From: Pelagerythrobacter aerophilus | GTDB lineage: Bacteria > Pseudomonadota > Alphaproteobacteria > Sphingomonadales > Sphingomonadaceae | NCBI RefSeq assembly: GCF_003581645.1 | Contig: NZ_QXFK01000018.1 | Span: 542,501-606,500 of the forward strand | Direction of reading: 5' to 3' | DNA length: 64,000 nt | Part shown: positions 7,364 through 50,305 of the stretch, piece after piece | Layout of the letters: every line of letters starts with the position of its first letter | How positions within the stretch are numbered: the first letter of the stretch is position 1 | Made by a program: the position numbers and the translations under genes | Notes under the pieces: model-generated | The model's input: only the letters and a program-made list of their open reading frames with translations | Database searches by the model: none | Told to the model about the DNA's origin: nothing

Positions 7364-7818
7364 TCCCGGCTTCGCTGCACCGCCGAGGCTATCGCCTGGC
7401 TCATGCGGTGCGGAAGGTCTGGTGGAGGCTGGCGCGACCGCGGCTGAATGGCTGCGCCATCGTCGCCAGCGACATCGAGGGACGGCTGCTGCTGGTTCGC
7501 CAGAGCTACGGCGCCGGGAGCTGGTGCTTTCCTACCGGCGGCATCCGGCGCGGCGAGGATCCTGAGGCCGCGGCGCGGCGCGAACTGCGCGAAGAAACCG
7601 GGTGCGAAGCCCATGCGATGACCTTGCTGGGCGTGCAGGACGACGTGCTTCACGGCGCGCTTCACCGGGTCCATGTCTTCGCCACCCGCATCTCCGATAC
7701 GCCGCGGCCCGACATGCGCGAGATCATTGAGGCGCGGCTGTTCCCGCCGCACTCGCTGCCCGAGCCACTGAGCGAACGCACGCGCCGGCGGCTCGCTCTC
7801 TGGCGCGAACGGTCATAG
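7351..7818 (+). CDS. Nudix hydrolase
   Basis: Hydrolyses a nucleoside diphosphate linked to another group; exact substrate unknown. The Nudix box GX5EX7REUXEEXGU is present and complete at about residues 64-86 (GIRRGE, then AARRELREETGCEA), with the metal-binding Glu residues intact. The start chosen is the GTG at 7351, overlapping the end of pgl by 13 bases and giving 155 aa (MLRLIPASLHRRGYRLA); no closer ATG fits. The N-terminus carries a short basic, Trp-containing helix (HAVRKVWWRLARP) ahead of the catalytic fold. Its last 6 bases overlap convergently with the end of dinB. Confidence 0.85.
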   Translation: MLRLIPASLHRRGYRLAHAVRKVWWRLARPRLNGCAIVASDIEGRLLLVRQSYGAGSWCFPTGGIRRGEDPEAAARRELREETGCEAHAMTLLGVQDDVLHGALHRVHVFATRISDTPRPDMREIIEARLFPPHSLPEPLSERTRRRLALWRERS

Positions 7819-8940
7819 CAGCAGCGAAAGCTGCGCCTCGTCGCGCGGCCGCTCCTGCGCGCCGCCGGCCTGCTCCAGATTGGACAGGGTGAGGCCCATC
7901 AACCGGATCGGTAGCGGCAGGGGCAGCAAGGCTTCGAGCAGCTCGTGCCCGAGCCGGGCGAACTCGGTCTTGTCGGCGACGCTGCGCGGCAGGCTCCGCG
8001 CCCGGGTGACGATCTGGAAATCGGTGTACTTCATCTTCAGCGTGACCGTGCGGCCCTTCGCGCCGGTGCGCTCGATGCTCTCCCACACGACGTCGACGAT
8101 ATTGTCGAGCGCTTCGCGCAGGGCATGGCCGCTCGATATATCCTCGCCGTAGGTCCGCTCGCCGCCGACCGACTTGCGGATGCGGTTGGCGCGCACGGGC
8201 CTCAGGTCGATCCCCCGCGCCGCGCGGTAGAGGTAGTCGGCGAAGCTGCCGAAGTTGGCGCGCAGGAAGGCGATGTCCCGGTCCGCGAGGTCGGCACCGG
8301 TCGCGATCCCGAGCCGCGCCATCTTCTCCGCGCCTTTCGGCCCGATCCCGTGGAACCGGCGCACCGGCAGCCCGGCGACGAAGGCCGCGCCCTCGCCGGG
8401 CCGGATCACGCACAATCCGTCGGGCTTGTTCTGGTCGCTTGCGAGCTTGGCCAGGAACTTGTTGTACGAGACGCCGGCGCTCGCGGTCAGCCCGGTCTCG
8501 TCGCGAATGCGCTGGCGGATGAGCTGGGCGATCCGCGTCGCCGAACCGATCCCGCGGATGTCATCGGTGACGTCGAGGTAGGCTTCATCGAGGCTCAGTG
8601 GTTCGACGTGCGGGGTGTAGTGGCGGAAGATCGCGCGAATCTGCTGGGACACGTCCTTGTAGACGTCGAACCGTGCGCGGACGAAGATCAGGTCCGGGCA
8701 CAGCCGCTTGGCGGTGACCGATGGCATCGCGCTGCGCACGCCGAACTCGCGCGACTCGTAACTCGCCGCGGCGACCACCCCGCGCCCGCCCGATCCTCCG
8801 ACCGCCACCGGCTTTCCGCGCAGCTCCGGATGATCGCGCTGCTCGACGCTGGCGAAGAAGGCATCCATGTCGACATGGATGATCTTGCGCAGGCCCTGCG
8901 CCTCGTCGGATTCTTCGTGGTCTGGCGCCGTGTCGTCCAT
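7813..8940 (-). CDS. dinB: DNA polymerase IV (Y-family)
   Basis: Error-prone translesion DNA polymerase. The N-terminal catalytic motif IIHVDMDAFFASVEQ contains Asp24, and the second catalytic motif LSLDEAYLDV contains Asp118-Glu119; GVSYNKFLAKLASDQNKP and the helix-hairpin-helix part (GIGPKGAEKMARLGI) follow in order. The protein ends in QLSLLL (residues 370-375), a beta-sliding-clamp binding motif exactly where Pol IV has it. At 375 aa it is a little longer than E. coli DinB (351 aa), the extra being an acidic N-terminal tail of about 18 residues. No LexA box was recognised upstream. It is divergent from the MFS gene. Confidence 0.94.
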   Translation of the reverse strand: MDDTAPDHEESDEAQGLRKIIHVDMDAFFASVEQRDHPELRGKPVAVGGSGGRGVVAAASYESREFGVRSAMPSVTAKRLCPDLIFVRARFDVYKDVSQQIRAIFRHYTPHVEPLSLDEAYLDVTDDIRGIGSATRIAQLIRQRIRDETGLTASAGVSYNKFLAKLASDQNKPDGLCVIRPGEGAAFVAGLPVRRFHGIGPKGAEKMARLGIATGADLADRDIAFLRANFGSFADYLYRAARGIDLRPVRANRIRKSVGGERTYGEDISSGHALREALDNIVDVVWESIERTGAKGRTVTLKMKYTDFQIVTRARSLPRSVADKTEFARLGHELLEALLPLPLPIRLMGLTLSNLEQAGGAQERPRDEAQLSLLL

Positions 8941-34540: not shown

Positions 34541-35371
34541 CTAGTCCATCAGCAGGATCGACATCCGCCGGTTGCGGGGGTCCTGCGGGTTGTCGGTGAC
34601 CAGCGGTTCGCGGTCGGCGACGCCCTCGATGCGGCGGAAGCGGGTTTCGCCGATCCCGCCGCGCATCAGGGCCTGGCGCGTGGCTTCGGCGCGGCCGGCG
34701 GACAGCGACCAGTTGTTGGCCGCCGCGCCGCTCTTCCACGGCAGGGCATCGGTATGTCCGCGAATGGTCAGGGCGCCCGGCTCGGGGCGCACCGCTTCGG
34801 CGATCACCTTCATCAGCTTCGCCGCATCGGGCGTGAGCACGGTCGTGCCGAGCACGAACATCGAGAAGTCGGCGTCGTCGACCAGATCGATCCGCACGCC
34901 CTCGATCGTGTCGACCATGCGCACCTGGCGCATCAGGCGGCGCAGGCGCCGGTCGTCGGCGATATCCTCTTGCACGCGCTCGCGCATGCGCTTGACCCGG
35001 TCGATGCTTTCCTTCGGCCCGCCCGAAACGTCGCGCGGGACGGTGATCGGCCGGCTGCCGGTCTGCGCGGCGCGGTGCGGATAGCTGTCGGGATCGACCA
35101 GCGAAGCGCCGCCCAGCAGCCCGTCGGAGCCGGCGCTCTTCTCCTTCAGCTTGACGAGCGTCGGGGTGAAGTAGTCGGCGATCCCCTTGCGCTGCGCCTC
35201 GGTCGTCGAGCCGAGCAGCCACAGCAGCAGGAAGAATGCCATCATCGCGGTCACGAAGTCGGCATAGGCGACTTTCCATGCGCCGCCGTGGTGGCCGGCG
35301 TCCTGGACGACGGTGACTTTCTTGACGATGATCGGCGGCGGCGGATCGTTGCGCCCTGCGCGCGAAGCCAT
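34541..35371 (-). CDS. motB: Flagellar stator protein MotB
   Basis: Stator subunit anchored to peptidoglycan. The 276-aa protein has the N-terminal basic segment, then the single membrane helix with the proton-binding Asp38 in WKVAYADFVTAMMAFFLLLW, the plug/linker, and a C-terminal OmpA-like domain (LTIRGHTDALPWKSG and the SLSAGRAEATRQAL helix). The ATG at 35371 lies one base after the motA stop. It is the last gene of the long leftward flg-mot operon; 211 bases without a gene follow (34330-34540). Confidence 0.95.
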   Translation of the reverse strand: MASRAGRNDPPPPIIVKKVTVVQDAGHHGGAWKVAYADFVTAMMAFFLLLWLLGSTTEAQRKGIADYFTPTLVKLKEKSAGSDGLLGGASLVDPDSYPHRAAQTGSRPITVPRDVSGGPKESIDRVKRMRERVQEDIADDRRLRRLMRQVRMVDTIEGVRIDLVDDADFSMFVLGTTVLTPDAAKLMKVIAEAVRPEPGALTIRGHTDALPWKSGAAANNWSLSAGRAEATRQALMRGGIGETRFRRIEGVADREPLVTDNPQDPRNRRMSILLMD

Positions 35372-35372
35372 C

Positions 35373-36236
35373 CTACCGCCCCCGCAGGCTGTCGAGCAGC
35401 TCCGAGAGGCCGGGGCGGAACGCATGGCCGAGGCCCGAGCGCGCGCTTTCGACCACCAGCGGCTGCGGATAGCCGTTGAGCGAAGCGATGATCACCTGCT
35501 TGACCGCGTGGAAGATCTGCTCGTCCTGGTCGATGATCTGCTTGAGCCGCGAGGCGAGCGGGCCGACCACGCCGTAGGCGAGCAGCACGCCGAGGAAAGT
35601 GCCGACCAGCGCCGAGCCGATCATCCCGCCGAGCACCGCCGGCGGCTGGTCGATCGAGCCCATCGTCTTCACCACGCCGAGCACCGCGGCGACGATGCCG
35701 AGCGCCGGCAGCGCGTCGGCCAGCGACTGCAGCGCATGCTGCGGCTCGCGCATGTCGTGGAAATGCGTCTTCATCGCATTGTCCATCACCTCCTCCACCG
35801 CATGCGTTTCGAGCGTGCCGGAGGAGACGACGAGCAGCGTGAGCGTATCGCAGATCAGTGCGGTCAGCGGCTGGTTGGCGAGCAGGTTCGGATACTCGGC
35901 GAAGAGTTCGGATTCGGCCGGAGTCTCGACATGGCTCTCGAGCGCGACCGGCCCTTCGGTGCGCAGCAGCTTCATCAGCTTGGTGGTCAGCGCGATGGCG
36001 TCGATGTGGTCCTGCCGCGAATGGCGCGGGCCCTTGAAGATCTTCCCGAACGACCGGCCGATCGCCTTCAGCTCGTGCATCGAGTTGCCGGCGATCATCG
36101 CCCCGACCGCCGCACCGCCGATAATCAGCATCTCGTGCGGGACGGCCTCCATCACGGGGCCAAGCGCGCCGCCGGTGAAGGCGAAGCCGCCAAACACCAT
36201 GACGAGCAGGACGACGATACCGATTGCAGCGTACAT
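35373..36236 (-). CDS. motA: Flagellar stator protein MotA
   Basis: Forms the proton channel with MotB. The 287-aa protein has four membrane helices: two near the N-terminus (IGIVVLLVMVFGGFAFTGGA and MLIIGGAAVGAMIAGNS) and two in the second half (ADALPALGIVAAVLGVVKTM and GSALVGTFLGVLLAYGVVGP). The long cytoplasmic loop with KLMKLLRTEGPVALESHVE is of the E. coli MotA type (not PomA). It pairs with motB one base downstream and starts 25 bases after flgL. Confidence 0.95.
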   Translation of the reverse strand: MYAAIGIVVLLVMVFGGFAFTGGALGPVMEAVPHEMLIIGGAAVGAMIAGNSMHELKAIGRSFGKIFKGPRHSRQDHIDAIALTTKLMKLLRTEGPVALESHVETPAESELFAEYPNLLANQPLTALICDTLTLLVVSSGTLETHAVEEVMDNAMKTHFHDMREPQHALQSLADALPALGIVAAVLGVVKTMGSIDQPPAVLGGMIGSALVGTFLGVLLAYGVVGPLASRLKQIIDQDEQIFHAVKQVIIASLNGYPQPLVVESARSGLGHAFRPGLSELLDSLRGR

Positions 36237-43291: not shown

Positions 43292-43698
43292 TTCATCCTC
43301 ATCGTTTCGAGCATCAGCTGCTTGGCGGTGGAGAGCGCCTCGACCATGTTCTGGTACTGGCGTGAAGCTTCGAGCATCTCGACCATCTCGGCGTTCTCAT
43401 CGACCGGGCTGGCCCAGACGTCGCCGTTCTCGTCGGCGAGCGGGTGGCCCGGTTCGTGCCGGCGGACCGGCGCGACGTCGGCGCGATAGACGCCGTCGAC
43501 CCGCACCGTGCTCATGCCGGTCGCGGTATCGAGATGTTCGGCAAAGACCGGGCGCAGCGGGCGATAGGCCTCGCCCTCGCTGGCAGCGACGCTGCCCGCG
43601 TTGGCAAGGTTGGAGGCCGCGGCGTTCATCCGCACGAGCTGCGCAGACATGGCGCGCTGGCCGAGGTCGAAGAGGGTCATCGGGCCGGGCATCGTCAT
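43288..43698 (-). CDS. flgC: Flagellar proximal rod protein FlgC
   Basis: Rod component of 136 aa (family about 134). The N-terminal helix reads LGQRAMSAQLVRMNAAASNL and is followed by ANAGSVAASEGEAYRP; the C-terminus has VDENAEMVEMLEASRQYQN and the helix MVEALSTAKQLMLETMRMK. Overlaps flgB and flgD by 4 bases each. Confidence 0.95.
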   Translation of the reverse strand: MTMPGPMTLFDLGQRAMSAQLVRMNAAASNLANAGSVAASEGEAYRPLRPVFAEHLDTATGMSTVRVDGVYRADVAPVRRHEPGHPLADENGDVWASPVDENAEMVEMLEASRQYQNMVEALSTAKQLMLETMRMK

Positions 43699-44042
43699 TC
43701 GCCCCTGATCGCGCGCGTGACGGTCTCGACCCGGCCGCGCAGGAAGCCCAGCGTCGCGGTATAGGCGACGGCGTTCTCGGCGAAGGCCGACTGTTCGGTC
43801 GCCATCTCGACGGTGTTGCCGTCGAGGCTGGGCATCGTCGGGACGCGGTAGCGGGTGGCCGAACCGACCGCCTGCTCGCTTCCGGCGCCGCCCATCTTCG
43901 CTTCCAGCGCTGCGGCGAAATCGATGTCGCGCGCCTTGTACCCGGGCGTCGCCGCATTGGCGATGTTCGATCCGAGCATGCCCATGCGCTGCGCCCTGAT
44001 CTCCAGCGCCGCGCCGTGAATGCCGAAAAGGCCGTTGCTCAT
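43695..44042 (-). CDS. flgB: Flagellar proximal rod protein FlgB
   Basis: First gene of the long flg-mot operon; rod component of 115 aa. The signature is IRAQRMGMLGSNIANAATPG followed by YKARDIDFAAALE, with the C-terminal helix TEQSAFAENAVAYTATLGFL. The ATG at 44042 lies 24 bases downstream of the predicted start of transcription from the sigma-54 promoter at 44076-44092. Confidence 0.95.
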   Translation of the reverse strand: MSNGLFGIHGAALEIRAQRMGMLGSNIANAATPGYKARDIDFAAALEAKMGGAGSEQAVGSATRYRVPTMPSLDGNTVEMATEQSAFAENAVAYTATLGFLRGRVETVTRAIRGE

Positions 44043-44075: not shown

Positions 44076-44092
44076 AGCAAAGAGCGTGCCAA
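44076..44092 (-). promoter_or_regulatory. Sigma-54 promoter of the flgB-motB operon
   Basis: Read on the minus strand: TTGGCACGCTCTTTGCT, a full match to the known sigma-54 consensus (YTGGCACG-N4-TTGCW), with GG and GC exactly ten bases apart. It faces flgB, with predicted transcription start near 44066. An array of TTGCC/GGCAA half-sites lies 45-95 bases upstream of that start, the usual place for an enhancer. Confidence 0.9.
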
Positions 44093-44110: not shown

Positions 44111-44162
44111 TTTGCCGGAAAACGCAGACGGGTGGCGGCAAGCGCTTGCCGGAAGCGGCAAA
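44111..44162. repeat. Array of TTGCC/GGCAA half-sites upstream of the sigma-54 promoter (probable enhancer)
   Basis: Half-sites at 44112 (TTTGCCGGAA), 44137-44150 (perfect 14-base palindrome GGCAAGCGCTTGCC) and 44146-44161 (TTGCC-N6-GGCAA), with CGGCAAA at 44156-44162. TTGCCGGAA occurs twice directly, 34 bases apart. The position relative to the flgB promoter fits a binding site of the sigma-54 activator encoded at 30315-31577. As I recall, Caulobacter FlbD sites have a similar CGGCAAA core; that comparison is from memory. Confidence 0.6.
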
Positions 44163-44222
44163 TGTCCGCCGCGGGCTAAATCCCGCACCGGCAGCGGCGT
44201 TCTTCGTGACAAGGAGAACCAC

Positions 44223-44876
44223 GTGGACATCATGCAATTGCTCGATCCGCTTTCGGCGGCGATCGTATTGGGAGGAACCCTGGCCGCGACCCTGCTGCGC
44301 TGCGGCTGGCGTGACGCACGCGCGGCTTTGCGCACGCTCGCGCGGCTCGCGGCCCGCCCGTTCGACAGCACGCACGTCCGCGCCGAGCTCGCCGCTCAGG
44401 TGCAGGAGATCGGCGAGGACGGCATTCTGCGCGCGGAGCCGCACCATTTCGGCGACGGCGAATTTGACGACCTGAGCGAGGCATTGATCCGCCACCGTTC
44501 GATCAAGGCGCTGCACGAGGAGCATGCCCGCCATCGCGAGCGGCGGCAGGCGGCGGCGGAAAGCGCCGCGCGCGTGCTGGGCGAGGCGGCGGAACTGGCA
44601 CCAGTGCTCGGCCTGGCCGGAACGCTCGTTGCCCTCGGCGGCTTCGCGGCGGCGGCGGACGCGGACTACGCCCGCTCGATCGGCACGGCCGTCATCACCA
44701 CGCTCTACGGCCTCGTGTTCGCGAACTTCGTCTTCGCGCCGCTGGCCGCCGGACTCGCACGACGCGCACGCGCGGAAGAGCGCGAACGGCAGGAGCTCAT
44801 CGACTGGCTGGCCGCCGCGGTCGAGCGGTCGATCCCCCGCGAACCCACGGATGCGGTCGAAAAGGCCGCGGCATGA
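44223..44876 (+). CDS. MotA/TolQ/ExbB-family protein, second stator-like subunit lacking the first helix
   Basis: A 217-aa MotA relative. The start is the GTG at 44223, with AAGGAG 6 bases upstream. It begins directly at the second MotA helix (DPLSAAIVLGGTLAATLLRC), then a charged cytoplasmic loop (residues about 30-115), and the two channel helices APVLGLAGTLVALGGF and GTAVITTLYGLVFANFVFAP, which match MotA/PomA helices 3 and 4 well, including the TTLYGL motif. The first MotA helix is absent. Its stop overlaps the start of a MotB-like gene. It is distinct from motA at 35373-36236 and lies in the flgA-fliA unit, divergent from flgB. It may form an auxiliary proton channel or energise flagellar assembly; this is inference. 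Confidence 0.8.
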   Translation: MDIMQLLDPLSAAIVLGGTLAATLLRCGWRDARAALRTLARLAARPFDSTHVRAELAAQVQEIGEDGILRAEPHHFGDGEFDDLSEALIRHRSIKALHEEHARHRERRQAAAESAARVLGEAAELAPVLGLAGTLVALGGFAAAADADYARSIGTAVITTLYGLVFANFVFAPLAAGLARRARAEERERQELIDWLAAAVERSIPREPTDAVEKAAA

Positions 44877-45346
44877 TCCTCTCGACCGCCCGCGCGGGCT
44901 GGCAGACCACGCTCGCCGATCTCGCGCTGATCCTGTTCATGGTCACCGCCGCGGCAATGGCCGAACGGCCCGAGACGGCCGATCCGGTAGAAGTCGGCAG
45001 CCCCGTCCCCGCGCGCGGCGAACCCCTCGCCATCTACCGTGCGGCGCCGAACGCACCGCCGCTGGCGGACTGGCTCGCCGAGCAGCCGCGCGACGCGCGC
45101 CAGAACCTGACCATCATCGCCCACTATGTCGCCGGCGGCAACGCCGAAGCCGCCGCTGCGGCGGTCGCTCTCGCCAGCGAGGCAGGGGCGGCCGGACACA
45201 GCGCCCGGATCGTGGTCGAACCCGGACCGGCGAGCGAGCTGGTCGCCGTGCTCGACTTCGACGGCCGCGCATCTGGCACGGGGATTGCAGAGACGCCCGT
45301 ACGCACGGCGCCGCGCGCGCCGCAGGAAAGCGACATCGGAAGGTGA
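44873..45346 (+). CDS. MotB/ExbD-like protein paired with the second MotA homologue
   Basis: A 157-aa protein with a short cytoplasmic N-terminus and one membrane helix, GWQTTLADLALILFMVTAAA. Trp10 and Asp16 have the same six-residue spacing as the Trp and proton-binding Asp of MotB (WKVAYAD), so Asp16 is the likely proton site. The periplasmic part has LTIIAHYVAGGNAEAAAAAV and VALASEAGAAGHSARIVVEP, which recalls the beta-alpha-beta start of an OmpA-like domain, but the peptidoglycan-binding residues (GHTD, NxxLSxxRA) are absent. It overlaps the MotA-like gene by 4 bases and is followed 4 bases later by flgA. I know no named family for it. Confidence 0.7.
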   Translation: MILSTARAGWQTTLADLALILFMVTAAAMAERPETADPVEVGSPVPARGEPLAIYRAAPNAPPLADWLAEQPRDARQNLTIIAHYVAGGNAEAAAAAVALASEAGAAGHSARIVVEPGPASELVAVLDFDGRASGTGIAETPVRTAPRAPQESDIGR

Positions 45347-45350
45347 CATC

Positions 45351-45851
45351 ATGCGACTGATCCCAGCAGCAATTCTCGCCGGCGCGCTCGGCACTGCGGT
45401 TCCGGCGCTCGCCGCCGGCTTCCACGATCTCGCCAGCATCGACCGTGCGGTCGCGCAGTTCACCGGCGCCCCGCAAGGCACCGAGGGCGGCGCGCGCCTG
45501 CCGGTCGACCGGCGGCTCAAGCTGACGCAGTGCCCTATGCCGCTCGCGCTCGAATGGTACGGCAACGCCAACAGCACGGTGCTCGTGCGCTGCCCGGTGG
45601 CGGGCGGCTGGCGGCTGTTCGTACCGGTCGCGGCCGGGCGGGCAGCGGCCAGGGCCGAACCGGTGATCGCCCGGGGCGAGGCGGTCTCGATCGCCGTCCA
45701 GGGCAGCGGCTTCACCGTTTCCCGCCAGGGCGAGGCGCTCGAAGGCGGCGCGGTCGGAGAATGGATCCGCGTCCGCCCCGCGGGCGACAAGCGCAACACG
45801 ATCCGCGCGCGGGTGATCCAGCCCGGCCGGGTCGGCGTCGAATTGCCGTAA
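45351..45851 (+). CDS. flgA: Flagellar P-ring assembly chaperone FlgA
   Basis: Periplasmic chaperone needed to assemble the P ring from FlgI. The 166-aa protein starts at the ATG at 45351 with a signal peptide (residues 1-20, PALAAG). The SAF-like C-terminal domain shows ARAEPVIARGEAVSIAVQGS, GFTVSRQGEALEGGAVGEWI and the end RVIQPGRVGVELP, the FlgA hallmark. It is shorter than E. coli FlgA (219 aa). It follows the MotB-like gene by 4 bases. Confidence 0.88.
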   Translation: MRLIPAAILAGALGTAVPALAAGFHDLASIDRAVAQFTGAPQGTEGGARLPVDRRLKLTQCPMPLALEWYGNANSTVLVRCPVAGGWRLFVPVAAGRAAARAEPVIARGEAVSIAVQGSGFTVSRQGEALEGGAVGEWIRVRPAGDKRNTIRARVIQPGRVGVELP

Positions 45852-45886: not shown

Positions 45887-45912
45887 TAAACGCCCACGCC
45901 CCCCGCCGTCCT
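45887..45912 (+). promoter_or_regulatory. Possible sigma-28 promoter of flgM
   Basis: TAAA (45887-45890), 14 bases, GCCGTCCT (45905-45912), 30 bases before the flgM ATG. The spacing is one base short of the consensus 15. A FliA-dependent flgM promoter is known in enterobacteria. Low confidence. Confidence 0.3.
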
Positions 45913-45941: not shown

Positions 45942-46232
45942 ATGGACCGGATCGACATGCACGGGCCGAACGGCATCCTGCGCAGCCTGCGGGCGAAGGG
46001 CACTGCGCCCGTTTCGCACGGCGAGCGCGCGCGGCCCGCCGGCACCGATGCCGATCGGGCGGCCGGGGTCGCCCTCAACGGCGTCGGCCTCGCCGGAACC
46101 GAAGCGCCCGTCGACCGCGAGCGCGTGACCGAACTCCGCCAGGCGATCGAGCAGGGCCGCTACCGGCTCGATCCGCGCAAGACCGCCGATGCGATGATCG
46201 CCGCGGGCTTCATGCCGAGGAACGAGCGATGA
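45942..46232 (+). CDS. flgM: Anti-sigma-28 factor FlgM
   Basis: Binds FliA and blocks late flagellar transcription until the hook is complete, when FlgM is exported. The 96-aa protein is disordered-looking in the first half and ends with the FliA-binding helices: VDRERVTELRQAIEQGRYRL, then DPRKTADAMIAAGF. The ATG at 45942 has GGAG 10 bases upstream. It overlaps flgN by 4 bases. Confidence 0.92.
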   Translation: MDRIDMHGPNGILRSLRAKGTAPVSHGERARPAGTDADRAAGVALNGVGLAGTEAPVDRERVTELRQAIEQGRYRLDPRKTADAMIAAGFMPRNER

Positions 46233-46582
46233 CCGAGAACCAGCCCCTGCGCCCCTCCCTTCGCGATGCGCTCCGGCAAATGCTTGCCCTTCTCGAAAGC
46301 GAGCGGCAGGCGCTTGCCGCCCTCGACCTCGATTCCATCCTCGACTGCTCCGACGGCAAGCTGGAGCTGTGCGAGGCGATCGAAAGTCAGGCGCAAGACG
46401 CGCTGGACGAGGAATGCCGCGGCCTGCTCGACGCCGTTGCGCGCCTCAACGAGATCAACCGCAAGATCCGCAACCTGATCGCCGCCAACGTCGACGCCCG
46501 CCTGGGCTCGCTCACGGGCCGCATCAGCCTCTACGGCACAGGCCGCCCCTCGGTGGCACGGGAGATGCCCTACTACGCCTGA
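46229..46582 (+). CDS. flgN: Flagellar export chaperone FlgN
   Basis: Chaperone for the junction proteins FlgK and FlgL. The 117-aa helical protein has the long coiled coil (LRQMLALLESERQALAALDL, DSILDCSDGKLELCEAIESQ and LLDAVARLNEINRKIRNLIA) and ends in SLYGTGRPSVAREM, typical of FlgN. Placement right after flgM is the standard arrangement. Two GGCAR-N4-TTGCC repeats fall inside the gene (46275-46319). Confidence 0.87.
   Translation: MTENQPLRPSLRDALRQMLALLESERQALAALDLDSILDCSDGKLELCEAIESQAQDALDEECRGLLDAVARLNEINRKIRNLIAANVDARLGSLTGRISLYGTGRPSVAREMPYYA
46275..46319. repeat. Two GGCAR-N4-TTGCC inverted repeats inside flgN
   Basis: GGCAA-ATGC-TTGCC at 46275-46288 and GGCAG-GCGC-TTGCC at 46305-46318, 30 bases apart (about three turns). 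They share the arm sequence and 4-base spacing of the palindrome upstream of the flgB sigma-54 promoter, and lie about 270-310 bases before the second sigma-54 promoter at 46584. Both also encode similar peptides (RQMLA, RQALA), so codon use could explain part of the likeness. Confidence 0.45.
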
Positions 46583-46583
46583 T

Positions 46584-46599
46584 TGGCACACCTCTTGCT
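46584..46599 (+). promoter_or_regulatory. Sigma-54 promoter of sltF-flhA-fliA
   Basis: TGGCAC (46584-46589), five bases, TTGC (46595-46598), T: the full -24/-12 consensus (TTGGCACACCTCTTGCT) in the 53-base gap between flgN and the transglycosylase gene. Predicted transcription start near 46610. It would put fliA, and hence the late genes, under sigma-54 control. Confidence 0.85.
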
Positions 46600-46635: not shown

Positions 46636-47487
46636 TTGTCAGGGGTCACATCAGTCCAGCGCAGCGCAGCGCCGCCCGACAACGTGCAGGCATCGATCGC
46701 CCGCGCGTCGGCCGCGACCGGGGTCGATTTCGACTACCTGCTGGCGCAGGCGAAGATCGAGTCCAACCTCGACAGCAATGCCCGCGCGCGCACCTCGAGC
46801 GCATCGGGGCTCTACCAGTTCATTTCCTCGACCTGGCTCGAAACGCTCGACCGCCACGGCAAGTCGCACGGGCTCGACTGGGCCGAAGCTGCCATCGTTC
46901 AGGAAGGCGGCCGCGCGAAAGTCGGTGACGCCGGGGCGCGGGCGCAGATCATGGCGCTGCGCTTCGATCCCGAAGTCTCATCCCTGATGGCGGCCGAGCT
47001 TGCGCGCGACAATGCGGGCGAACTGCGCGGCTTCCTCGGGCGCGAACCCGACCACGCCGAGCTCTATCTCGCGCATTTCCTGGGGGCAGGCGGCGCCAAG
47101 GGTTTCCTCGGCGCCTTGCAGGACAATCCGCTGTCGCCCGCCGCGGCGCTGTTTCCCAAGCCCGCGCAGGCCAACCCAGCGATCTTCTACCAGGGCGGGC
47201 GCTCGCGCTCGGTCGGCGAGGTCATGGACCTGGTGCGCGGCAAGGTCGAAGCCGCCAAGCAGGGCGATGGCGCGCCACCGGCGACCGGCACTTATCTGCC
47301 GTCGACGCCATCGGCCGCTTTCACCCAGGCGCGCCGCACGTTCGCCGCCGAGCCCGCCGGGCCCGCGCCGCGCCCCTCGATGGCCGAAACCCTGCAGACG
47401 ACCTTCGGCGGCTCCAACGGCCTCGATAGCCGCGCCGCGCGGCACGTGGGCGAAGCCTACGGCAAGTTCCGAGCGTTCGGGCTGTGA
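46636..47487 (+). CDS. Flagellar lytic transglycosylase (SltF-like)
   Basis: Opens the peptidoglycan for rod penetration. The 283-aa protein has an SLT domain in its N-terminal half: catalytic Glu in LLAQAKIESNLDSNARARTS (Glu of KIES), then ASGLYQFISSTWLETLDRHG and AELYLAHFLGAGGAKGFLGA. The C-terminal 110 residues are Pro/Ala-rich and could carry the FlgJ contact known for SltF of Rhodobacter. No obvious signal peptide is present, so export through the flagellar system is possible. The start is the TTG at 46636 with GGGGA 5 bases upstream. Its stop overlaps the flhA start. It complements FlgJ, which lacks a muramidase domain here. Confidence 0.85.
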   Translation: MSGVTSVQRSAAPPDNVQASIARASAATGVDFDYLLAQAKIESNLDSNARARTSSASGLYQFISSTWLETLDRHGKSHGLDWAEAAIVQEGGRAKVGDAGARAQIMALRFDPEVSSLMAAELARDNAGELRGFLGREPDHAELYLAHFLGAGGAKGFLGALQDNPLSPAAALFPKPAQANPAIFYQGGRSRSVGEVMDLVRGKVEAAKQGDGAPPATGTYLPSTPSAAFTQARRTFAAEPAGPAPRPSMAETLQTTFGGSNGLDSRAARHVGEAYGKFRAFGL

Positions 47488-49589
47488 CCTGGCGCTCGTT
47501 CCTCGCGCCCTCGATGGCGCTGCCGGTCGGCATCCTGACGATCATCGTGTTGATGGTCGTGCCGATCCCGCCGGCTATGCTCGACTTGTTTTTCGTGCTC
47601 AACATCGCGCTCTCGGTCGCGGTGCTGATGGCGGCGATGAACGCGGAAAAGCCGCTCGACTTCTCGTCGTTCCCCTCGGTCCTGCTGTTCGCGACGCTGC
47701 TGCGCCTGGCGCTCAACGTCGCTTCCACGCGCGTCGTGCTGATGAACGGACACGAGGGCGAGGCCGCGGCCGGCAAAGTGATCGAGGCCTTCGGCGCCTT
47801 CCTGATCGGCGGCAGCTTCGCCGTCGGTCTGTTCGTCTTCATGATCCTGATGATCATCAACCTGGTCGTCGTGACCAAGGGCGCAGGCCGCGTGTCGGAA
47901 GTCTCCGCACGCTTCACGCTCGATGCCCTCCCCGGCAAGCAGATGGCGATCGACGCCGACCTCGCCGCCGGCCTGATGACGGCCGACGAAGCCAAGGCCC
48001 GCCGCCGCGAGATCGCGACCGAGGCGGATTTCTACGGCTCGATGGACGGTGCCAGCAAGTTCGTGAAGGGCGACGCGATCGCGGCGCTGCTGATCCTGTT
48101 CGTCAACATCGTGGCGGGGTTCGTGCTCGGCATGGCGACGCATGGCCTGTCGGCGAACGAAGCGGGCGAGCTCTACGTTACCCTGGCCGTCGGCGACGCG
48201 CTCGTCGCTTCGGTTCCCGCCCTGCTGCTCTCGATCGCCGCGGCGGTCATCGTGACCCGCGTTTCGGACAACCGCGACCTCACCGGGCAGATCGGCGGCC
48301 AGCTTGCCGAGCCCGGCATCTGGCTTCCGGTCGGCTGCATCCTCGCGGCCATGGGCATGATCCCGGCCATGCCGCAGTCGGTCTTCCTGCCGCTGGCTGC
48401 CGGCGCTTTCGCACTGTGGCGCACGCTCAAGCGGCGCAAGGCCTTCGTGCCGGTCGCCGAAGCCGAGCCCGCCCCCGACCCGACGCGGATCGCGATCGGC
48501 GACATTTCCGAACAGGCGCTGGTGACGATCGAGCTCGGCTTCGGGCTGGTCCATCTCGCCGACGACCGGCGCGGCGCCCCGCTCGTCTCGCGCCTCACTG
48601 GATTGCGGCGGCAACTGTGCCAGTCGTTCGGCTTCATCGTGCCGCAGTTCCGCATCAAGGACAGCTTCGACCTGGCGCCCGATCGCTACCGCGTGACGCT
48701 GGGCGGTGCGCCGCTCGGCTCGGGCCAGCTTCGCCCCGACCGCATGCTGGCGATCGACACCGGCGAGGCGGGCCAACTGGCCCAGCTTCCCGGCGAAGCG
48801 ACCCGCGATCCCAGCTTTGGCTGCCCCGCCGTGTGGATCGATGCCGCGACGCGCGATCTCGCGGTGGCCGAGGGCTATCTCGTGGTCGACCCGGAAAGCG
48901 TGGTCGCGACCCATGTGAACCAGCTCCTTTCCGCCCGGCCACAAGACCTGCTCGGCCCCGACCAGGTGCGCGAGCTGCTCGACATGGTGCGCGAGCGAAA
49001 TGCGCAGATGGTCGAGACGATCACGCCGCAGCCGCTCTCGCTCGCCGCGGTCACCCGCCTGCTGCGCGCGCTGCTCGCCGACGGCATCTCGCTCGCGCAT
49101 CCGCTGCCGATTCTCGGCAGCCTGTCGCAGGCGGCGCAGCAGACGACCGATCACGACCGCCTGGTCGACATGCTCCGCGCCGATCTCGGCCCGATGCTGG
49201 TCGGCAGCCTGTGCGCGCCGGACGAACGCCTGCCGGTCATCACCCTCGCCGCCGAGCTGGAGGAGATGGTCGTCGGCGGGCTGCAGGACCCGGCAAGCGG
49301 AAACGTCGTCATCGAGCCCGATCTCGCCCGCTCGATCGGCGAGCGGATCGCCGCGATCGTCGCGAGCCGCCCGGCCGGCGCGGGCAAACCCGCGCTGATC
49401 GTCCAGCCGCGCGCCCGCCGCCCGCTGGCCGGCCTGCTGCGCCTGCGCGCACCGGGCTGCGCGGTCCTTTCGATCAACGAACTGCCCGTCGCCCAGCCGA
49501 TCGAAGTGATCGGCGTCGTCGGCGGCGATGAGCAGGCGCAGGCCCCGCAGCCGGCGCCGGATATGGACAGGGAGCCCTTGGCCGCATGA
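47484..49589 (+). CDS. flhA: Flagellar export gate protein FlhA
   Basis: Major export-gate protein, binds chaperone-cargo complexes and conducts protons. It has 701 aa. The N-terminal 320 residues contain about eight membrane helices with signature stretches FSSFPSVLLFATLLRLALNV and the FHIPEP loop region VSEVSARFTLDALPGKQMAI, DADLAAGLMTADEAKARRRE. The C-terminal cytoplasmic domain includes VTHVNQL-like VATHVNQLLSARPQDLLGPD. The start is the GTG at 47484 overlapping the sltF stop (GTGA). It overlaps fliA by 4 bases. Confidence 0.97.
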   Translation: MTWRSFLAPSMALPVGILTIIVLMVVPIPPAMLDLFFVLNIALSVAVLMAAMNAEKPLDFSSFPSVLLFATLLRLALNVASTRVVLMNGHEGEAAAGKVIEAFGAFLIGGSFAVGLFVFMILMIINLVVVTKGAGRVSEVSARFTLDALPGKQMAIDADLAAGLMTADEAKARRREIATEADFYGSMDGASKFVKGDAIAALLILFVNIVAGFVLGMATHGLSANEAGELYVTLAVGDALVASVPALLLSIAAAVIVTRVSDNRDLTGQIGGQLAEPGIWLPVGCILAAMGMIPAMPQSVFLPLAAGAFALWRTLKRRKAFVPVAEAEPAPDPTRIAIGDISEQALVTIELGFGLVHLADDRRGAPLVSRLTGLRRQLCQSFGFIVPQFRIKDSFDLAPDRYRVTLGGAPLGSGQLRPDRMLAIDTGEAGQLAQLPGEATRDPSFGCPAVWIDAATRDLAVAEGYLVVDPESVVATHVNQLLSARPQDLLGPDQVRELLDMVRERNAQMVETITPQPLSLAAVTRLLRALLADGISLAHPLPILGSLSQAAQQTTDHDRLVDMLRADLGPMLVGSLCAPDERLPVITLAAELEEMVVGGLQDPASGNVVIEPDLARSIGERIAAIVASRPAGAGKPALIVQPRARRPLAGLLRLRAPGCAVLSINELPVAQPIEVIGVVGGDEQAQAPQPAPDMDREPLAA

Positions 49590-50305
49590 GGTACGACCAT
49601 TCCGAATTTGCCGTGGCGGAGGCCTATTGCGGCAATGTCGGCGACCGGGTCACCCGGTTCCTGCCGATGGTCCGCAAGCTTGCCTGGCACCTGTCGGGCA
49701 GCGGCGGCCCGACCGTCGATGTCGAGGACCTGATGCAGGCCGGCCTCGTCGCGCTGACCGAATGCGCGCAGAAACACGATTCGCCGAGCGAGGACGGCTT
49801 CGCCGCCTATGCCAAGCTGCGCGTACGGGGCGCGATGGTCGACCTCTTGCGCAGCGCCTCGCCCGATCCGCGCGGCGCGCGCGCCAAGCGGCGCATGATC
49901 GAGAGCGCCCGGGCGAAGCTCCACACTGCGCTGGGGCGCGAACCTTCTTCCGCCGAACTCGCCGACACGCTCGGGATGGCGGTCGAAGACTTCCGCCGGC
50001 TCGAAAGCGATCTGGTCGAGACACGGCTCAACTCGCTCGACGAGTGCTATTCGGAAAGCGACACGGCCTTCGCCTCGCACGAACCCGATGCGGAGCGGCA
50101 GGTTCTCCAGCAGGAGGACCGCGAGATCCTGATCGCCGCGCTCGGCTCGCTCGGCGAGCGGCACCAGCTCGTGATCCAGCTCTACTTCGTCGAGGAACTG
50201 AACCTGTCGGAAATCGCCGACGTGCTCGGCGTCAGCGTGCCGCGCGTGCACCAGCTCAAGGCCGCCGCCCTCGCGCAGATGCGCAAGGCGATGGCGGAGG
50301 ATTGA
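49586..50305 (+). CDS. fliA: Flagellar sigma factor FliA (sigma-28)
   Basis: Directs RNA polymerase to late flagellar genes such as flagellin. The 239-aa protein contains region 2 (FLPMVRKLAWHLSG, VDVEDLMQAGLVALTECAQK and AAYAKLRVRGAMVDLLRSAS), region 3 and region 4 (LGERHQLVIQLYFVEELNLS, EIADVLGVSVPRVHQLKAAA). Last gene of the rightward flagellar unit. FliA is absent from Caulobacter but present in Sphingomonadales, and the sigma-28 site at flagellin agrees with its presence. Confidence 0.95.
   Translation: MRYDHSEFAVAEAYCGNVGDRVTRFLPMVRKLAWHLSGSGGPTVDVEDLMQAGLVALTECAQKHDSPSEDGFAAYAKLRVRGAMVDLLRSASPDPRGARAKRRMIESARAKLHTALGREPSSAELADTLGMAVEDFRRLESDLVETRLNSLDECYSESDTAFASHEPDAERQVLQQEDREILIAALGSLGERHQLVIQLYFVEELNLSEIADVLGVSVPRVHQLKAAALAQMRKAMAED

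Follow-up and report, generated by a model that had tools for sequence, protein, structure and literature searches.

In the ExbB/ExbD and TolQ/TolR systems, the A subunit has three membrane helices and the B subunit consists of one helix, a short linker and a small head. Another stator-like pair, SiiA/SiiB, belongs to a type I secretion system and works outside plain torque generation. For flagellar ion transporters, four features have been set out in the main text of PMC12505986, namely a four-helix membrane domain, a plug plus linker, a wall-binding domain and a cytoplasmic interface, with PomAB as the example of the class TGI4. Within PomA, the charged residues 88, 89, 96, 97 and 99 have been reported to be important in part of another paper (PMC9093738). 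Stator units can also have accessory factors, as in the case of FlgX, the stator chaperone of Campylobacter jejuni according to a portion of PMC6686046. In Sphingopyxis granuli TFA, repression without oxygen has been reported for the whole set of 39 flagellar genes, SGRAN_4088-4126 (PMC6472365).

The window (the whole stretch of 64,000 nucleotides of Pelagerythrobacter aerophilus DNA analyzed here) carries, apart from its regular motA and motB genes, a second and cut-down stator pair beside the genes for flagellar assembly. This was the claim of a previous reading made from the DNA letters (hereafter the sequence-only reading), and both open reading frames were confirmed. The genes referred to below are:

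34541-35425, minus strand: regular motB (limits of the open reading frame; the true start is probably internal)
35373-36236, minus strand: regular motA, E. coli type with MotA_N domain (Pfam MotA_N 6e-30, MotA_ExbB 1e-13)
43695-44042, minus strand: flgB, divergent from the pair (Pfam Flg_bb_rod 7.5e-6)
44223-44876, plus strand: short A subunit of the MotA/PomA type, with three predicted membrane helices and PomA helix 1 missing (Pfam MotA_ExbB 3.1e-11)
44873-45346, plus strand: short B subunit, a MotB/PomB-type helix with Trp10 and Asp16 followed by a small periplasmic head
45351-45851, plus strand: flgA, 4 bp past the B gene (Pfam ChapFlgA 7e-11)
45942-46232, plus strand: flgM (Pfam FlgM 6e-10)
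46229-46582, plus strand: flgN-like gene (Pfam FlgN 2.8e-4, under the cut-off)
46636-47487, plus strand: lytic transglycosylase-like gene, slt (Pfam SLT 4.8e-4, slightly under the cut-off)
47484-49589, plus strand: flhA (Pfam FHIPEP 3e-218)
49586-50305, plus strand: sigma factor, probably fliA (sigma-28), with Sigma-70 regions 2, 3 and 4 and named by its position

The A frame opens with GTG and encodes 217 amino acids, the B frame encodes 157, and the two overlap by 4 bp. The translation of the regular motB contains, as read by eye, a MotB-type helix (WKVAYADF) and an OmpA-type stretch (NNWSLSAGRA). The sequence-only reading had placed the pair inside the flagellar assembly operon; its position between flgB and flgA holds, but there is not one operon, since flgB is divergent and the pair heads a plus-strand run, flgA-flgM-flgN-slt-flhA-fliA, with a promoter-like site of its own. 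The best NCBIfam match is PRK09109, which we take to be MotC, whereas the B protein has no Pfam or NCBIfam match up to E 10. In one annotated record the A gene appears as "MotA/TolQ/ExbB proton channel family protein" and its partner as "hypothetical protein". Among named relatives, Pelagerythrobacter rhizovicinus is the closest, with 87% in the A protein. Membership of the Zorya defense systems (ZorA/ZorB) was discarded, as neither protein has a PADLOC match up to E 1. Searches of the open full-text literature listed no description of such a pair, although one may exist elsewhere; the main text of PMC12505986 makes no mention of sphingomonads or truncation, and the pair is not described in the parts of PMC9389320 and PMC12363192 that were consulted.

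The A protein is, by profile and predicted fold, a flagellar stator subunit and not a member of ExbB/TolQ. Its family profile matches PomA at 1.8e-46, with an alignment that runs from PomA residue 26 on, and matches TolQ at 0.003. Three membrane helices are predicted in the AlphaFold2 (AF2) model (pLDDT 90.9), together with a cytoplasmic domain as large as that of PomA; the helices of this domain span approximately residues 29-42, 49-66 and 79-91 and the start of 94-143 (hand-counted), and the alignment of the model to PomA covers 215 columns. When this model was searched with Foldseek, all 23 matches with E<=0.001 were flagellar MotA/PomA chains (top match 8brd_A, E 3.2e-8), ExbB/TolQ chains beginning at about 7e-3 (the best at 7.3e-3, others weaker). 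Membership of the ExbBD/TolQR type, which the sequence-only reading had put forward as one option, was rejected on these two comparisons. The proposal that the A protein starts at helix 2 has been borne out. Instead of the four-helix "square fold" membrane domain, the A protein has three membrane helices, PomA helix 1 being absent, and an in-frame hydrophobic segment upstream was seen in only one of 39 pair relatives (L044, borderline and before its chosen start), compared with a hydrophobic first helix in 39 of 40 PomA-type homologues from outside the family (the exception, L242, is out of register). A missed upstream start that would restore helix 1 was ruled out, 38 of the 39 rows lacking any such segment. 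The profile score alone fails to tell the pair from PomA, as a genuine in-family copy of the pair (G240) scored 160.8 bits and PomA-type proteins outside reached 171.6; because of this overlap, helix 1 and gene context were used as discriminators, a test that covered 40 of the PomA-type matches outside the family. In the tree of A proteins, from which L061 (contig end) and L063 (degenerate) were omitted, the pair forms a single group with weak support (71).

The B protein is more divergent. It has the MotB-type helix with Trp10 and Asp16 in MotB spacing, in agreement with the sequence-only reading. Its AF2 model (pLDDT 82.6) comprises a helix at residues 7-30, a low-confidence loop of about 22 residues (31-52) and a compact beta-alpha-beta-alpha-beta-beta head. 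Foldseek returned zero matches with E<=0.001 for this model, and those of the head are weak (SiiA 0.05, MotB 0.22, PAL 0.29) and interspersed with unrelated folds. A B profile that includes divergent relatives matches PomB over the whole sequence at 1.4e-8. The match falls into a helix stretch (14-48) and an OmpA-domain stretch (183-278) that lie some 8 profile positions apart in the pair; taken singly, each stretch is weak (helix 1.1, head 4e-4). A profile of the window's close relatives alone gives no PomB match, and the OmpA ancestry of the head is undetectable from it. This ancestry is proposed because intermediate relatives bridge to it. Of the 10 B proteins in one sister lineage, nine have a Pfam OmpA match at E<=1, which in the first lies above the cut-off, and six match MotB_plug. 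Four intermediate B proteins match both models, with MotB_plug above the cut-off in L060 and OmpA above the cut-off in L062; MotB_plug is matched to the model end in two of these four, a plug-like part thus being kept in some relatives. The window-lineage B profile in turn matches the sister lineage (E 2e-5, 82 columns) and L060 (E 9e-7, 102 columns including much of the head). A WE...AR stretch was found in 10 of 10 rows of this sister lineage and in none of the other 19 rows of the divergent B alignment. In the window B protein itself there is no Pfam match to an OmpA-type peptidoglycan-binding domain and no MotB_plug match, and the PomB helix and OmpA stretches nearly adjoin in the profile; the plug plus linker of flagellar ion transporters is absent. 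The sequence-only reading had stated that the partner has no peptidoglycan-binding motif; this is true of the window copy, but its head probably represents an OmpA-like domain that has become worn, and relatives still match Pfam OmpA. The B subunit is a PomB-type protein without the long linker. Its length is 123-192 residues in the pair and 251-330 in the outside controls with an adjacent B gene (15 of 40). Taken together, the ancestry of the pair from a PomA/PomB-type flagellar stator is well supported by the profiles and predicted folds.

The conservation of the pore is strong. All 79 close rows (the window plus 78 of the 80 named loci, L195 and L201 being left out for contig ends) have the B-subunit Asp16, as do all 29 divergent rows, where it is the sole invariant column. 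The close A alignment has 69 rows (A5: the window and 68 of the 80 named loci, with L151, which has an in-frame stop, and ten others left out) and the divergent A set has 30 (A1). With PomA residue numbers hand-counted on the profile-PomA alignment, Pro127 (equivalent to Pro151) and Thr134 (Thr158) are found in 69 of 69 and 30 of 30 rows, and Thr159 and Thr160 (Thr185 and Thr186) in 68 and 69 of 69 close rows and in 25 and 26 of 30 divergent rows. Thus the protonatable Asp and the pore Thr/Pro residues of a PomAB-type stator are all present in the pair. The dN/dS values against five relatives are 0.10-0.28 for A and 0.19-0.36 for B, within a range comparable with flgA (0.10-0.27) and flgB (0.15-0.33). 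The channel is probably live, with an ion pathway kept under conservation.

Individual copies show decay. In L063 (genome G019) the A gene is degenerate, the partner is gone and the pore TT is also lost; in L130 (G105), of the same genus, flgB and flgA adjoin each other without the pair. Judged by their genes, these two loci are the loss of the pair seen in progress. An in-frame stop was observed in the A gene of L151 (4001-4660, a MAG) and of G084 (G084:C4:684613-685269), and an internal deletion in that of L058 (8365-8958).

A different picture is found at the cytoplasmic face. R88, K89 and E96 are each conserved in 15 of 15 beta/gamma-type PomA controls; at the same positions the pair (A5, 69 rows) has R in 18, K or R in 19 and E in 35, and the divergent set has R in 10 of 30, K or R in 9 of 30 and an acidic residue in 21 of 30. 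The alignment of 20 order-level controls was unreliable in the FliG-contact region. The charged FliG-contact residues of a regular PomAB-type stator are therefore mostly not conserved. Next to K89, a K or R is found in 12 of the 30 divergent rows; together with the acidic residues at the E96 position, this would be compatible with a shifted FliG contact. The cytoplasmic face nevertheless appears to be under constraint, because another set of residues (Gly67, Arg70, Asp78 and Arg108) is conserved in the window's lineage. On this pattern of residues, the pair would not be a normal torque unit.

Expression signals were also compared. Sites were classed by what we take to be the sigma-28 and sigma-54 consensus sequences, and those of the locus are:

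44076-44091, minus strand: sigma-54-like site TGGCACG-N4-TTGCT on the flgB side (exact match)
44156-44168, plus strand: CGGCAAATGTCCG box
44177-44203, plus strand: promoter-like site TAAA-N15-GGCGTTCT of the pair, putatively sigma-28-like
45274-45289, plus strand: sigma-54-like site 77 bp ahead of flgA, within the 3' end of the B gene (exact match)
45887-45912, plus strand: site TAAA-N14-GCCGTCCT upstream of flgM, of the same type as the pair's

The strict form of the pair's site occurs in the window only before the A gene and flgM, and the sole other exact match to CGGCAAATNNCCG also lies upstream of flgM (45864). Only exact matches to CGGCAAATNNCCG and to the sigma-54 pattern were used in the window, where neither CGGCAAATNNCCG with up to one mismatch (5 found, 2.4 expected) nor the sigma-54 pattern with up to two (12 found, 9 expected) is enriched. 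A near-consensus sigma-54-like site with one mismatch was seen at 46584-46599, ahead of the transglycosylase-like gene and flhA. Among relatives, 60 of 79 loci carry T[AG]AA-N13..17-G[CG]CGT[TC]CT in the 220 bp ahead of the A gene, where the background rate is 0.019 per 220 bp, and in 54 of the 60 it begins 31-60 bp ahead of the chosen A start. Of the 79 relatives, 59 have a sigma-54-like site on the flgB side and none has one on the pair's strand; in the 700 bp that follow the A gene in the direction of flgA, such a site was found in 55 of 76. In the complete cluster of Qipengyuania citrea E4, TAAA-N14/15-GCCGTTCT stands ahead of just two genes, the A gene and flgM, and sites of the sigma-54-like type are found before flgB, flgA and slt; flagellin and the regular motA of this cluster have no match to the scanned TAAA pattern, the flagellin showing TTAA-N15-GCCGGTCT by eye. 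The pair would therefore be expressed late, from a sigma-28-type promoter like that of flgM, and such timing speaks against a role in early assembly.

The distribution of the pair follows the flagellum. A search with the A protein gave matches in 53 of 119 family genomes: the window itself, 40 fetched for context and 12 not, with G028, G034, G052 and G056 following later. The A gene lies beside a divergent flgB in 39 of the 40 fetched contexts and has flgA downstream in 38 (L061 reaches its contig end), and the same placement was seen in 20 of 20 further contexts chosen from the order-level search; L071, which belongs to another flagellar cluster, was removed from the pair set. The partner is visible in 37 of 38 assessable rows (36 by pattern and L058 by eye), L063 being without it and L061 cut by the contig end. 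Among the named loci (the best 80 of 224 were fetched), the partner is encoded in 80 of 80, although two partners run off the contig; the 4-bp A/B overlap is kept in 79, flgB was found in 79 and flgA in 77. As the partner is encoded in all 80 and dN/dS is low, the pair is no local accident and stands far above chance. Profile A1 likewise detected the pair's A gene in 53 of the 119 genomes, 51 of them at E<1e-50; the remaining two are the copy of G079, with an internal deletion, and the degenerate copy of G019. Three other A matches of 1e-41 to 1e-34 (G007, G052 and G056) were rejected as the pair, being PomA-type proteins with helix 1 beside a distant FlhA.

In the co-occurrence survey that the sequence-only reading had proposed, all 53 A-gene genomes carry a family-type FlhA (best match at least 47% identical). 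This FlhA is present in 70 of the 119 genomes, another 14, with G007, G052 and G056 among them, have only a distant FlhA and 35 are without an FlhA match (E<=1e-20); in none of these 35 was a pair-type A gene detected, so that the wide occurrence in non-flagellated strains which would have spoken against a flagellar link is not seen in the family. Conversely, 17 of the 70 genomes with family-type FlhA show no A gene (one is not assessable), and the pair must therefore be accessory, the motor being able to do without it. In eight of the 17, flgB and flgA lie side by side with 215-416 bp between match ends and no pair; two (L132 and L133) have other flagellar genes in the slot or near flgA; flgA was not found in L143; five rest on the genome search, the fetched stretch falling short of flgB/flgA; and the contig of L131 (G082, 66% complete) ends just beyond flgA, for which reason its mark as "absent" in the FlhA tree is to be read as a contig end. 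In this tree, built by a short search and with some long branches, the pair is missing from the deepest family lineages, and a single clade (support 95) contains all 58 bearers together with several losses. A single gain with later losses would explain this most simply. The order, class and phylum searches (296, 385 and 398 genomes) yielded many PomA-type genes elsewhere, and, because of the controls on helix 1 and B length, the shortened pair is placed only in this family, as far as these samples and the 40 matches examined go.

Several other observations were made in these loci. In L132 (10279-11738, G085) and L133 (6074-7464, G017), which are basal relatives without the pair, LPP20 (FlgP-like) and FlgT_N genes are present, those of L132 lying exactly where the pair would be, between flgB and flgA; a tblastn search with these genes found nothing significant, either in the window or in the other loci covered. 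A stretch of about 1 kb or more separates the B gene from flgA, by eye, in L046, L047, L048 and L056, and an opposite-strand gene is found there in L046 (about 7630-8740), L048 (9875-10798) and L056 (9468-10568), with a GGDEF-type look, also by eye, in part of them. In Q. citrea E4 the whole flagellar set, including the pair, the regular motAB, fliL and fliG, is located on the 270-kb plasmid plas1 (NZ_CP098495.1, about 57.5-90.4 kb; L248). The plasmid search yielded a single record. Finally, a second, distant FlhA (36-39% identity) exists beside the family type in G006, G021, G043, G071, G088, G096 and G098; these seven genomes may have two flagellar systems or an additional type III secretion apparatus.

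The best reading of these data, held tentatively and at somewhat less than an even chance, is that of a late-made, flagellum-dedicated, anchor-less and ion-driven unit that assists or modulates the finished motor. Sequence and prediction support its first part: starting from a PomA/PomB-type ancestor, the A subunit lost its first membrane helix and the B subunit most of the approximately 135 residues between helix and OmpA-like head, the wall-binding motif of the head being lost afterwards in the window's lineage. The ion pathway (the equivalents of PomA Pro151, Thr158, Thr185 and Thr186 and the B-subunit Asp) was kept, and the pair is tied to one flagellum type. Made late from a sigma-28-like promoter like flgM's, the two proteins may form a 5:2 ion-driven rotary unit with no plug and no usual anchor; this form is assumed from homology, the AF2 models being of single chains. 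The altered cytoplasmic domain would dock on the rotor or on a regulator, whatever might hold the periplasmic head would not be the usual wall anchor, and the pair would tune or support the regular MotAB motor without replacing it. An auxiliary or regulatory role is likely because the pair is linked to the flagellum, has no usual anchor and has mostly lost the FliG-contact residues, and its function as an auxiliary motor unit is what we infer. Against this reading, the sigma-28 class is taken from the shape of the site, with flagellin and the regular motA of Q. citrea E4 not matching the scanned pattern; 17 of the 70 genomes with this flagellum type show no A gene; a shifted FliG contact is possible; and a short linker is compatible with wall contact, as in TolR and ExbD, the head of one sister lineage still having its WE...AR stretch. 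A further picture, an anchor-less stator-derived machine of ExbBD-like layout at the motor beside normal stators, so that one flagellum has two different ion-driven rotary units, only one of them making torque against the cell wall, is doubtful.

The strongest rival is an ExbBD/TolQR-like energizer of a periplasmic basal-body step, whose head would work on the P-ring or on a wall-modifying protein, the loss of helix 1 and linker having converged on the ExbB-ExbD layout. That layout is indeed seen in the models, the pair lies directly before flgA and near a transglycosylase-like gene, and neither the anchor motif (in the window's lineage) nor most FliG-contact residues are left. However, fold and sequence are flagellar and not those of ExbB/TolQ, a PomA-sized cytoplasmic domain is retained, flgB, flgA and slt have promoter-like sites of a different type, and the eight relatives with adjoining flgB and flgA lack the pair, all of which makes the energizer unlikely. 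The same promoter type, shared with flgM, and the same eight relatives leave the export or rod/ring assembly roles of the sequence-only reading less supported. Next in order is an accessory torque-generating stator of the Na+ type that would exchange with the regular MotAB and be anchored via another motor protein. It would fit the PomA-type ancestry, the retained cytoplasmic domain and the equivalents of Thr158, Thr185 and Thr186, the threonines of the Na+ site, but FliG-contact charges that are mostly not conserved, the missing linker and a head without wall-binding motif in the window's lineage render it quite improbable.

Flagellar export is required before the late genes switch on. For this reason a channel that provides or monitors the ion flow for the export of flagellar proteins, as might be suggested by the conserved channel residues and by flhA five genes past the B gene, is very unlikely: the promoter-like site is of the flgM type and not of the flgB/flgA type, and the flagellum type exists without the pair. 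The least probable account is that the pair is what remains of an older stator, now decaying and without a function. The degenerate L063 without partner, the pair-less L130 of its genus and the A genes of individual genomes that are interrupted by a stop (G084, L151) or shortened by an internal deletion (L058) would agree with it, although the conserved pore and low dN/dS disfavor a remnant, as do the invariant Asp, the 4-bp overlap kept in 79 of 80 loci and the conserved promoter-like site.

The auxiliary unit proposed here is of biological significance because, of the four stator features in the main text of PMC12505986, three have been removed in one family while the pore is strongly conserved and the pair is kept in the cluster. 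The pair is thus a natural test of an unanchored stator, bearing on which features serve torque and which serve ion flow, and it may reveal a new mode of motor tuning in widespread sphingomonads. Compared with known systems, SiiA/SiiB is likewise stator-like, and its SiiA head is a fold match of the B model (E 0.05) that is not significant; unlike the pair, it is not flagellar. FlgX, compared by its description in part of PMC6686046, is an accessory factor of stator units, whereas the pair is itself stator-derived. The pair resembles ExbB/ExbD and TolQ/TolR in its three-helix A subunit and in a B subunit with one helix, a short linker and a small head, but matches them weakly in fold and sequence and has a cytoplasmic domain of flagellar type. 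Finally, it is like PomA/PomB and MotC/MotD in sequence, fold, ion-pathway residues, two-gene layout and location in a flagellar cluster, and differs from them in the absence of helix 1 and of the long linker, in its worn head and in the loss of most FliG-contact residues; of the four features in the main text of PMC12505986, the one that it keeps is the cytoplasmic interface.
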